Shown: positions 2,299-26,564 of the stretch, piece by piece | Numbering within the stretch: position 1 is the stretch's first letter | How the letters are laid out: every line of letters begins with the position of its first letter | NCBI RefSeq assembly: GCF_017993425.1 | Contig: NZ_JAGOMQ010000036.1 | Location: forward strand, 1-36,956 | DNA from: Amaricoccus sp. | GTDB lineage: Bacteria; Pseudomonadota; Alphaproteobacteria; Rhodobacterales; Rhodobacteraceae | DNA length: 36,956 nucleotides | Reading direction: 5' to 3' | The notes under the pieces: generated by a model | Seen by the model: the letters and a program-made list of their open reading frames with translations, nothing else | Database searches by the model: none | What the model was told of the DNA's origin: nothing | Made by a program: the position numbers and the translations under genes

Positions 2299-3132
2299 TC
2301 ACCAGCGCAGGTTGCGGCAGAGGTAGGTCGGCGCATCGCGGGCCGTCGCCACGGCGAGGTCGGCGGAGTCGAGGGCGCCGTGGACGCCGCCCTCGAGGAC
2401 GAGGAGCGAGTCGAAGCCGCGGCGGCGGGCGCCGACGATGTCGGTCGCGAGGTTGTCGCCGATCGCCAGCACCTCGGCCGGGTCGGCGCCGCCGGCGAGG
2501 TCGAGGGCATGGTCGTAGATCGGGTCGAAGGGCTTGCCGTACTCGACCACCTCGCCGCCGAGCGCGGCGTAGCGGGCGGCGATCCAGCCGGGGCCGAGGC
2601 GCAGGGCGCCGCCGGAGGGATAGACGACGTCCGAATCGGCGACGAGGAGCGGCGCGCCGCGGCCGCTCGCAGCGGCGAGCTGGCGGGGCAGGCGGCCCGC
2701 CTCCGCCTCCGCCTCGGTCGGGTGCGGCATTCCCACGGCGAGGAGCAACTCGGCCGCGTCGATGCCGACGCGGGCGTTGGGCAAGGCGGCGGTCCAGGGC
2801 GGCCAGGCGCCCTGCTCGATCACGTGGAGGGTGGCGGCGCGCGCCGCGTTGCGGGCCTCGATGTCGCGCCAGGCGAGCTCGCCGGAGCAGGCGACGTGGT
2901 CGTAGCCGTCGCGCGGGAAGCCGAGGCTCGCCATCCGCTGGACCATCCCGTCGGTGCGTTGCGGCGAGTTGGTGAGGATCACCACGACGCAGCCCGCCTC
3001 CCTTGCGCGCAGCATCGCCTCGGCGGTCATCGGCAGCGTCGCGCGGCCGTCATGGAGCGTGCCGCAGGCGTCGACGAGGAGCAGGCGGTAGCGGGCGACG
3101 ATCCCGGCGATGCCGTCGATGCGCCGGGTCAC
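2299..3132 (-). CDS. HAD superfamily class IIA hydrolase (TIGR01459-like)
   Basis: 277 aa starting with GTG at 3132, the start that overlaps the stop of a small bridge ORF (GTGA). HAD motifs: D21-A-C-G-T (motif I), LTN at 53-55 (motif II), GKPFDPIY (motif III lysine) and IGDNLATDI (motif IV). The second aspartate of the usual DxD is absent, as in the TIGR01459/NagD-like subfamily in which the motif reads DxWG or similar. It probably acts on a small phosphorylated metabolite, perhaps the phosphate-bearing product of the neighbouring phosphonate/phosphodiester hydrolase; the substrate is inferred only from the operon. A second member of the same subfamily lies at 19757-20677. Confidence 0.75.
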   Translation of the reverse strand: MTRRIDGIAGIVARYRLLLVDACGTLHDGRATLPMTAEAMLRAREAGCVVVILTNSPQRTDGMVQRMASLGFPRDGYDHVACSGELAWRDIEARNAARAATLHVIEQGAWPPWTAALPNARVGIDAAELLLAVGMPHPTEAEAEAGRLPRQLAAASGRGAPLLVADSDVVYPSGGALRLGPGWIAARYAALGGEVVEYGKPFDPIYDHALDLAGGADPAEVLAIGDNLATDIVGARRRGFDSLLVLEGGVHGALDSADLAVATARDAPTYLCRNLRW

Positions 3133-3269
3133 GACGCGGCCCTTCCGAAGTCGGCGGAGCCCTTCGGCGCGATCGTCCCGGCGGAGAGCCCGGCGATCCT
3201 GTCCGGCCAGCGGGTCACGACGCGGCCCTTCCGAAATCTGCCGCGCCCTTCAGCGCGATCGTCCCGGCG
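3126..3269. repeat. Imperfect tandem duplication across the ATPase/HAD gene junction (86-bp period)
   Basis: Bases 3126-3183 and 3212-3269 match at 53 of 58 positions, both starting GGGTCACGACGCGGCCCTTC. Weaker similarity extends further left (CCCGGCGAT in both copies), so the repeated unit contains the 3' end of the ATPase gene and the 5' end of the HAD gene. The stop/start overlap (GTGA) is duplicated with it. Confidence 0.85.
3129..3218 (-). CDS. Bridge mini-ORF 1 (29 codons, fused gene ends)
   Basis: GTG at 3218-3216 overlaps the TGA of the upstream ATPase gene, and its own TGA (3131-3129) overlaps the GTG of the downstream HAD gene. The peptide begins VTRWPDRIAG, a copy of the HAD start VTRRIDGIAG, and ends AGTIAPKGSADFGRAAS, a copy of the ATPase tail AGTIALKGAADFGRAAS. 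It is therefore a by-product of the junction duplication. It may serve only to pass ribosomes from one gene to the next; there is no evidence that the peptide itself has a function. Confidence 0.35.
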   Translation of the reverse strand: MTRWPDRIAGLSAGTIAPKGSADFGRAAS

Positions 3270-25342: not shown

Positions 25343-26319
25343 GCCGCGGCTTCCGCGGACTTGAGGATCACCCGGCCCTTGCGGCGCTCGGCGCGGGCGT
25401 TGACGGCGACGGCGACGATGATCGCGGCGCCGGAGATGGCGAGCTGCCAGAAGGGCGAGATGTTGACGACGGGCAGCGCGTTCTTGATGACGCCGAGGAA
25501 GAGCGCGCCCATCACCGCGCCGGCGACCGAGCCGACGCCGCCGGCGATGGAGACGCCGCCGATGACGCAGGCGGCGATGACGTCGAGCTCGAAGCCCGCC
25601 GCGATGTCGACATAGGCGACGGCGTAGCGGGCGACCCAGAGGTAGCCGCAGAGGCCGCCGAGGGCGCCGGAGAGCACGAAGGCGGCGAAGCGGGTGCGGC
25701 CGACGTCGATGCCGGCATAGGCGGCGGCGTGGGGGTTGCCGCCGACGGCGTAGAAGGCGCGGCCGAGCGCGGTGCGGGTGACGAGGAGCCAGACCGCGAC
25801 GACGACGAGGACGGCGATCCACGAGAGGAGCGGCAGGCCGAGGAGGAGCGTGCGGGGCAGCGCCTTGAAGGCCGGGCTCATCTCGTGGGCGTTGATCCAC
25901 TCGCCGCCGGAGAGGACGAAGATCAGCCCGCGGTAGATGGTGAGCGTGCCGAGGGTGACGACGATGGGCGGGATCTCCAGCCGCCAGACGAGGAGGCCGT
26001 TGACCGCCCCGAGGGCGGCGCCGAGGACGAGGGCGAGCGCGAGGAGCCCGAGGACCGGCGCGCCGGGGAAGGCCTGGTTCAGCATGGCGACGACCATGCC
26101 GGTCAGCGCGAGGTTGGCGGCGACGGAGAGGTCGATGCACTTGGTCAGGATCACCGCCATCTGGCCGAGGGCGAGCACGATAAGGATCGACGTGTCGTTG
26201 AACACGTTGGCGAGGTTCGCCGGCCGCGCGAAGGCGGGGAAGCGGGTGGAGATGAGCAGGATCAGCGCCAGGATGGCGCCGGCGAGCAGGATCTCGCGGG
26301 ACTTGAGGGCGCGGTCCAT
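25339..26319 (-). CDS. rhaP: Rhamnose ABC transporter permease RhaP
   Basis: 326 aa from ATG at 26319 (MDRALKSREILLAGAILALI). The frame is open further upstream through the repeat, but that part is not protein-like. BPD_transp_2 family: CIDLSVAANLALTGMVVAML, NGLLVWRLEIPPIVVTLGTL, YAVGGNPHAAAYAGIDVGR, VIGGVSIAGGVGSVAGAVMG. It partners RhaQ. The start codon is overlapped by the stop of bridge mini-ORF 4 (TGATG). Confidence 0.88.
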   Translation of the reverse strand: MDRALKSREILLAGAILALILLISTRFPAFARPANLANVFNDTSILIVLALGQMAVILTKCIDLSVAANLALTGMVVAMLNQAFPGAPVLGLLALALVLGAALGAVNGLLVWRLEIPPIVVTLGTLTIYRGLIFVLSGGEWINAHEMSPAFKALPRTLLLGLPLLSWIAVLVVVAVWLLVTRTALGRAFYAVGGNPHAAAYAGIDVGRTRFAAFVLSGALGGLCGYLWVARYAVAYVDIAAGFELDVIAACVIGGVSIAGGVGSVAGAVMGALFLGVIKNALPVVNISPFWQLAISGAAIIVAVAVNARAERRKGRVILKSAEAAA

Positions 26320-26564
26320 CAGGCGGGCCTTTGGGTGAGCGGAAGGAGACGGAAGGCTTGGGGGTCGTTGGCCGGACGGCCGGGCCGTGGGGCTCTTCGC
26401 CCTGCGAAAGCGACGCATTGCGTCGCGCAGGGCGTCGCCCCGGAGCGCGTTGGCGCGGAGGGGCGAGGGGCGCCGAGCTGTCCCGTTGCGCGCCAATCCG
26501 CGCGCGCCTGCCTGGGCTGGCGCGGTAACGCGCCTGCCAAGGGGCAGGCAGGCGCGCGCCCCAT
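26319..26564 (-). CDS. Bridge mini-ORF 4 between rhaT and rhaP (81 codons, through an interspersed repeat)
   Basis: ATG at 26564 shares its A with the rhaT TGA (TGATG), and its TGA (26321-26319) shares its A with the rhaP ATG. The frame runs without a stop through the palindromic repeat copy B and a large hairpin. The peptide begins MGRAPACPLAGALPRQPRQA and ends RLLPLTQRPA; it has no recognisable domain. CCATCA occurs at both ends (26316-26321 and 26561-26566), but most of that hexamer is dictated by the start/stop overlap. Confidence 0.35.
   Translation of the reverse strand: MGRAPACPLAGALPRQPRQARADWRATGQLGAPRPSAPTRSGATPCATQCVAFAGRRAPRPGRPANDPQAFRLLPLTQRPA
26404..26500 (+). repeat. Interspersed palindromic repeat, copy B
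   Basis: Reads GAAAGCGACGCATTGCGTCG, GGAGCGCGTTGGCGCGGAGG and GGCGAGGGGCGCCGA in order, matching copy A (643-728, opposite strand) at most positions and sharing the central GGAGCGCGTTGGCGCGGA with copy C near 36607. It lies within the rhaT-rhaP gap. Confidence 0.75.
26501..26558. repeat. Large hairpin in the rhaT-rhaP gap
   Basis: CGCGCGCCTGCCTG (26501-26514) and CAGGCAGGCGCGCG (26545-26558) are perfect 14-bp complements. The loop contains a second hairpin, GGCGCG-GTAA-CGCGCC. It stands directly after the rhaT stop region in the mRNA and could stabilise the upstream rhaRST part or attenuate the permease part. There is no U-run. Confidence 0.6.

Follow-up and report, generated by a model that had tools for sequence, protein, structure and literature searches.

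Short open reading frames that bridge operon junctions in Amaricoccus: probable by-products of duplication or insertion across stop/start overlaps

Four gaps between operon genes in a contig of Amaricoccus sp. (NZ_JAGOMQ010000036.1; the window, in what follows, is the whole stretch analyzed, 36,956 nucleotides [nt] long) are each spanned by a short open reading frame (ORF) whose start codon overlaps the stop of the upstream gene and whose own stop overlaps the start of the downstream gene. The question raised by this arrangement is whether such mini-ORFs are maintained so that ribosomes can be handed from one gene to the next, as the initial annotation of this DNA proposed, or whether they are simply left behind by the events that opened the gaps. 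The annotation's coordinates, overlaps and lengths for the mini-ORFs (90, 171, 138 and 246 nt) all agree with the sequence and its translations:

3129-3218, minus strand: bridge mini-ORF 1, 29 amino acids (aa), 90 nt, GTGA at both ends
12985-13155, plus strand: bridge mini-ORF 2, 56 aa, 171 nt, TGATG at both ends
25205-25342, minus strand: bridge mini-ORF 3, 45 aa, 138 nt, ATGA at both ends, reading ATGACC
26319-26564, minus strand: bridge mini-ORF 4, 81 aa, 246 nt, TGATG at both ends, reading TGATGG

We consider it likely that these mini-ORFs arose as by-products when DNA was duplicated or inserted precisely across the stop/start overlap of two operon genes. For two of the four the initial annotation had already recognized a duplication, and it is present at both sites, with unit lengths that leave a remainder of 2 on division by 3:

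3094-3179: site 1 duplication unit, copy 1, 86 nt (copies numbered in plus-strand order; the match extends over 3094-3183)
3180-3265: site 1 duplication unit, copy 2, 86 nt, 81% identical
12887-13056: site 2 duplication unit, copy 1, 170 nt
13057-13226: site 2 duplication unit, copy 2, 170 nt, 88% identical

Mini-ORF 1 joins a copy of the downstream gene's head to a copy of the upstream gene's tail. The arithmetic offered earlier, by which duplication of an overlapping junction yields a bridge when the unit length (L) is 2 mod 3, is sound, and it suggests how these ORFs could arise. A duplicated unit that spans the overlap would damage neither gene: copy 1 would keep the stop of the upstream gene, and copy 2 the start of the downstream gene together with the bases immediately before it. 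Such a duplication should therefore be tolerated at any length. Left over would be a chimeric ORF, whose first part is the extra copy of the downstream gene's head and whose second part that of the upstream gene's tail, and which runs from upstream stop to downstream start when the codon phases align, which at ATGA and TGATG overlaps means L of 2 mod 3. Both halves of the chimera would be open at birth because they derive from coding frames. Two steps of termination and reinitiation would then replace one, with ribosomes passing from the upstream gene through the mini-ORF into the downstream gene. We read sites 1 and 2 as instances of this process.

The same signature recurs elsewhere in the source genome (G000). 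We sampled 1.237 Mb of it, about a third of the genome with the window included (72.6% guanine plus cytosine [GC]), and took 1112 genes from a gene finder trained on that sample, not from an annotation. A gene-blind scan for tandem duplications with units of 40-400 nt returned 39, of which 11 lie within genes, 11 are intergenic and 17 fall at gene edges. Those within genes are all 0 mod 3 (11 of 11), and the intergenic ones are distributed 5:3:3 over remainders 0, 1 and 2. A single duplication in the sample lies at convergent gene ends. Ten of the 39, those of sites 1 and 2 plus eight more, are direct repeats that extend over both the stop of one gene and the start of the next in a co-directional pair. 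Each of the ten implies that the two genes once overlapped (in the simple cases gap minus L is -4 or -1), and in eight of them L is 2 mod 3 (86, 170, 86, 146, 119, 122, 98 and 134 nt); the other two units are of 93 nt (0 mod 3) and 127 nt (1 mod 3). At two junctions the duplication forms a chain, with a gap of two units minus 4 and two consecutive mini-ORFs (C92:90920, L = 146; C43:93523, L = 119), the origin being less clear at C92:90920, where the good match between each mini-ORF and the downstream gene's head is limited to the mini-ORF's first 44 nt. A partial eleventh case (C70:73522, L = 179, 44 nt matched) came from a targeted scan only and is left out of the count. Junctions as such are not special, therefore: 10 of the 28 duplications outside genes span one, compared with 28.6% expected at random, and we rejected a general enrichment of duplications at junctions on that ground. 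In a separate observation, three tandem duplications (86, 146 and 201 nt) lie within approximately 5 kb of one another at C92:88466-93609 (L185), two of them over overlapping junctions.

The preference for one remainder does not call for selection, because microhomology in codon phase predicts it unaided. When gene tails are compared with gene heads, 0.61, 0.67 and 0.71 of the short matches are in aligned codon phase for k = 6, 7 and 8, respectively. Eight of ten units at 2 mod 3 is unlikely if each remainder has one chance in three (P = 0.003) and unsurprising under the 61-71% that microhomology predicts (P = 0.18-0.41). We infer that microhomology was the cause: in so strongly codon-periodic a genome, phase-aligned matches would make units of 2 mod 3 the commonest. 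The length remainder was accordingly rejected as proof of selection, and the initial annotation's claim of selection to preserve coupling is not demonstrated by it. Nor are the peptides conserved; changes are spread over every codon position, and the numbers of synonymous changes come close to the neutral expectation or fall below it.

Relatives retain the overlap from which the duplications would have started. History was inferred for four of the ten duplicated junctions, site 2 and three others (maf-rng, ThiF and FtsX permease); at site 1 the best HAD relatives are at most 40% identical and gave no orthologous junction. The nearest relative by three proteins compared (G003, 78-87% identity) has a single plain GTGA overlap at maf-rng (L302), ThiF (L313) and the FtsX permease (L320), all of which are duplicated in G000. 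The site 2 junction was found in 74 relatives' loci with an adjacent oxidoreductase, and 38 of these overlap (-4 in 35, -1 in 3). A gap of at least 10 nt occurs in 20 of the 74 and is bridged in two, Rhodovulum sp. 12E13 (L169, 130 nt) and L151 (25 nt). The opened junction of L169 (2867-3004) has ATGA at both ends of its 130 nt and an open frame between them; the duplication signal there is unclear (rank 4 of 70 offsets).

Sites 3 and 4, which the initial annotation set apart as not obviously duplications, are best read as insertions: in several relatives the genes on either side overlap each other. Thirteen loci were compared, and six of them (L070-L074 and L076) were dropped for want of a gene call under the G000 model. 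In three genomes (G007, G010 and G002) each of the two junctions is a -4 or -1 overlap. Three others have -4 at one junction and an opening at the other: an independent bridged gap of 208 nt in G006, an unbridged gap of 29 nt in G020 and an unbridged gap of 305 nt in G051. Site 3 did not behave as a tandem duplication (its offset ranks 14 of 61), and tandem duplication scans found no direct repeat across site 4. We read site 3 as an insertion or an old, decayed duplication, and site 4 as an insertion that holds a dispersed repeat:

26375-26500: copy of a dispersed, hairpin-rich intergenic repeat within the site 4 insertion

This repeat is approximately 130 nt long and occupies 653-725, 26375-26500 and 36576-36698 of the window, where a search of Rfam gave no match at gathering cut-offs. 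The 32 places aligned from the 1.237 Mb comprise site 4, one self-inverted match in a gene and 30 others, all intergenic; genome-wide there are at least 40 matches in G000, two in G007, one in G010 and none in the other eight of the ten further genomes of the genus. Seventeen copies lie in co-directional gaps, of which two are bridged, at site 4 and at C17:43927. The latter copy sits in a 619-nt gap (C17:43529-44147; L209:3529-4147) that has ATGA on either side, holds an open frame of 208 codons and lies between a further ABC ATPase and a BPD_transp_2 permease, whose identities to the window proteins are 40% and 33%; the arrangement parallels that of site 4, but the operon is unrelated. At site 4 itself TGATGG stands at either end, as a target-site duplication would leave, which is suggestive only. 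At mini-ORF 4 a GTG also overlaps the stop that TGATG shares.

How common are bridges, whatever their origin? We considered gaps of 20-300 nt between co-directional genes and called a gap bridged if an open frame starts on an overlap with the upstream stop and ends on an overlap with the downstream start. By this definition 26 of 348 gaps in the G000 sample are bridged (4 of 16 in the window alone). Dinucleotide shuffling of the gap interiors, with ends and lengths kept, gave 19.4 ± 2.2 and never reached 26 in 200 shuffles; re-pairing of gap ends gave 10.2 ± 2.5 and never reached it in 1000. Across the third of the genome that was sampled, the frequency, which the initial annotation suggested comparing with shuffled gaps, thus exceeds what is expected at random. 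With a further 159 kb of G000 added, 30 of 395 gaps are bridged versus 11.4 by re-pairing, and the same null is exceeded in G006, of the same genus (67.7% GC, 0.8 Mb sampled; 11 of 213 versus 4.9, P = 0.001), and in G023 (53.2% GC, 0.4 Mb; 3 of 96 versus 0.8, P = 0.024). The excess is one of frame: the 43 G000 gaps with NTGA at both ends fall 26 in the in-frame length class and 11 and 6 in the others (P = 2e-4), compared with 101:106:93 among the 300 gaps that lack an overlap at one or both ends. Unannotated small genes inflate both the bridged-gap and the frame-excess numbers by an unfixed amount.

Several observations weigh against duplication or insertion as a sufficient account. After removal of ten duplicated or repetitive gaps, 22 of 385 are still bridged versus 8.7 ± 2.5, and detectable duplications are therefore not the whole explanation. 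Intergenic duplications are over-represented (11 of 28 versus 17% expected), and those covering a gene start only are under-represented (1 of 28 versus 22%). The added 159 kb of G000 holds eight duplications, none of which covers a junction (four are in genes, three intergenic and one at the end of a gene), and G006 has no junction duplication in 0.8 Mb, its eight tandem duplications all being within genes; the rate of duplication is therefore uneven. Finally, no junction duplication lies on a gap of 0-30 nt, all ten being on -4 or -1 overlaps, a restriction that a mutational account does not predict.

Counted per overlapping junction, the difference between the two Amaricoccus genomes is 10 of 166 in G000 (156 counted plus the ten duplicated) versus 0 of 119 in G006 (P = 0.006). 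No tandem duplication was found in the 0.4 Mb of G023, and the loci from other genomes, 0.90 Mb in total, contain one, a satellite in L103. Junction duplications look like a trait of the G000 lineage, perhaps tied to its extreme GC content. The L103 element (6912-7299) was considered as a second genome with junction duplications and rejected; it is a three-copy, 128-nt palindromic satellite in an intergenic array of a proteobacterial metagenome-assembled genome, unrelated to gene junctions.

The explanation that competes best with a neutral origin is that opened junctions persist only if they are translated through to the downstream start, so that reinitiation still delivers ribosomes. We regard it as a serious possibility, though one that falls somewhat short of even chances. 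Coupling at -4 and -1 overlaps is well established and weakens sharply with distance (PMC10666635, for Escherichia coli and Haloferax; PMC12548453), and coupling by termination-reinitiation is known at ATGA and TGATG overlaps (PMC6728339). All ten junction duplications fall on such overlaps, where 37% would be expected by random units and up to approximately 43% by our estimate after reclassing of duplicated pairs and weighting for detection (P = 5e-5 to 2e-4); at an expectation of 50%, P is still 1e-3. Detection bias was simulated as a cause and not found at 10-20% divergence: duplications on -4/-1 overlaps and on gaps of 0-30 nt are detected alike at 10% divergence and at rates of 0.95 versus 0.86-0.92 at 20%, a bias appearing at 30% (0.49 versus 0.24-0.29). 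The restriction to overlapping junctions has no neutral explanation that we can offer, and it hints at selection without proving it. The scarcity of duplications covering a gene start only points the same way.

Two further tests lean toward selection less firmly. Ten mini-ORFs from eight duplications contain no premature stop where at most 4.3 would be expected (P = 0.012), but the test assigns every difference to the free copy and includes doubtful parts of the reference, and P rises to approximately 0.04 without the 146-nt chain and to approximately 0.12 without the 134-nt case as well. The in-frame excess survives removal of duplicated NTGA/NTGA gaps (36:15:16 over three genomes, P = 5e-4); however, codon-phase microhomology predicts an in-frame share, old decayed duplications would retain the bias, and small genes add to it. 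Openings that are not bridged also exist. They include 18 of the 20 relatives with at least 10 nt at site 2 (many of which may never have overlapped), the G020 and G051 gaps described above, and two in G000 itself, of 11 and 44 nt. A bridged opening of 37 nt occurs at maf-rng in G001, and among orthologous pairs from the G000, G006 and G023 samples four rows represent three distinct opened junctions, one of which is bridged; this tally in relatives is not systematic. Any selection would favor the translated-through state and not the peptide. In its more specific form, in which overlapping junctions are filtered for hand-over and translated-through variants mainly survive as short-lived relay ORFs whose openness but not sequence is selected, the idea is tentative, and we hold it a little less probable than the general one. 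If it were true, the hand-over filter would hold generally, and the excess of bridged gaps in three genomes would be its visible trace.

Chance is an improbable source of the set. Stops are rare in DNA of 72.6% GC, so open frames and accidental start/stop overlaps should be plentiful, and the window indeed lists 150 ORFs of at least 60 aa; shuffles that keep the real ends and lengths still give 19.4 bridged gaps, and coincidence might alone explain site 3 or site 4. Sites 1 and 2 are duplications, however, and as the cause of the whole set chance is rejected by the re-pairing null in all three genomes.

On the evidence of coding scores and substitution counts, we think it very unlikely that the bridges are, as a class, real unannotated small genes overlapping both neighbours. 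Such genes would leave an identical signature and probably account for some of the excess, and a few bridge peptides appear protein-like by eye (C4:21438, 57 aa; G006 C1:78659), but the per-residue coding score is at or below zero in 21 of 26 bridge peptides, and mini-ORFs 1 and 2 copy the neighbouring genes without conserving amino acids.

Hardly more credible is a mobile family that carries a coupling ORF and inserts at start codons, in the manner of mycobacterial interspersed repetitive units (MIRUs): the layout is alike and the site 4 repeat has its second bridged copy at C17:43927, but the other 15 of its 17 copies in co-directional gaps are unbridged, matches to inserts 1 and 2 elsewhere in the 1.237 Mb are all weak, and insert 3 has a single weak match genome-wide. 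MIRUs are nonetheless the closest published parallel. A 2025 review (PMC12548453), which cites Supply 1997 for them, states that they insert at start codons, that the internal ORF becomes coupled at a spacing of -4 nt, and that this coupling likely minimizes the effect of the insertion. Here too the ORF of the insert overlaps its neighbour at -4 nt, by GTGA at site 1 and ATGA at site 3, with the -1 overlap TGATG at sites 2 and 4. MIRUs differ in being one dispersed, apparently mobile family, whereas sites 1 and 2 are built from their own neighbours and sites 3 and 4 hold unrelated inserts; we found no homologous unit dispersed at many coupled junctions and none shared among sites 1-3.

The initial annotation's remark that the pattern was not known to be described therefore does not hold for the layout, the idea of an insert that preserves coupling having been published for MIRUs; the birth of a bridge by junction duplication, and its codon-phase rule, we did not find among open-licence PMC full texts. 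Judging from the sequence, the mini-ORFs would engage the termination-reinitiation known from ordinary operons, with the same -4 and -1 overlap types at both ends, and would differ in requiring two overlaps in succession. They also recall the intergenic and upstream small ORFs that deliver ribosomes to the following gene (PMC12548453; PMC8092293), in that their value likewise would lie in translation and not in the peptide; unlike those, the ORFs described here come automatically from a duplication and encode a chimera.

We conclude that the observation is real and its origin mostly simple, and what remains to be explained is why the surviving duplications are confined to junctions that overlap. 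If selection is real, these loci would provide a comparative-genomics test of how far operons depend on coupling, each opened junction being a natural experiment. Even without selection, duplication across overlaps shows how operons can gain small ORFs neutrally, as chimeras of the neighbouring genes that may be annotated as genes themselves, and the codon-phase rule is a correction needed in any claim of selection on insert length.

The neighbours of all four mini-ORFs are ordinary operon genes, listed here with the starts that our gene finder called:

3215-4255, minus strand: site 1 upstream gene, ABC transporter ATPase with an oligo_HPY C-terminus (Pfam on the longer ORF 3215-4726)
2299-3132, minus strand: site 1 downstream gene, HAD-like hydrolase
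11774-12985, plus strand: site 2 upstream gene, NAD/FAD-dependent oxidoreductase, Pyr_redox_2 (Pfam on the longer ORF 10862-12985)
13155-14540, plus strand: site 2 downstream gene, FGGY-family carbohydrate kinase
24207-25208, minus strand: site 3 downstream gene, permease 2 (BPD_transp_2)
25339-26319, minus strand: permease 1 (BPD_transp_2), between sites 3 and 4 (Pfam on the longer ORF 25339-26496)
26564-28117, minus strand: site 4 upstream gene, ABC transporter ATPase

Two further observations concern bridging frames elsewhere. In G000, a 54-nt tandem array between co-directional genes (C92:98611-98908, L185) is open as a 98-aa bridging frame. In G006, two bridged gaps approximately 6 kb apart (C2:257391-257622 and 263482-263722; L265 and L266) encode similar peptides, which suggests a paralogous repeat at both junctions.

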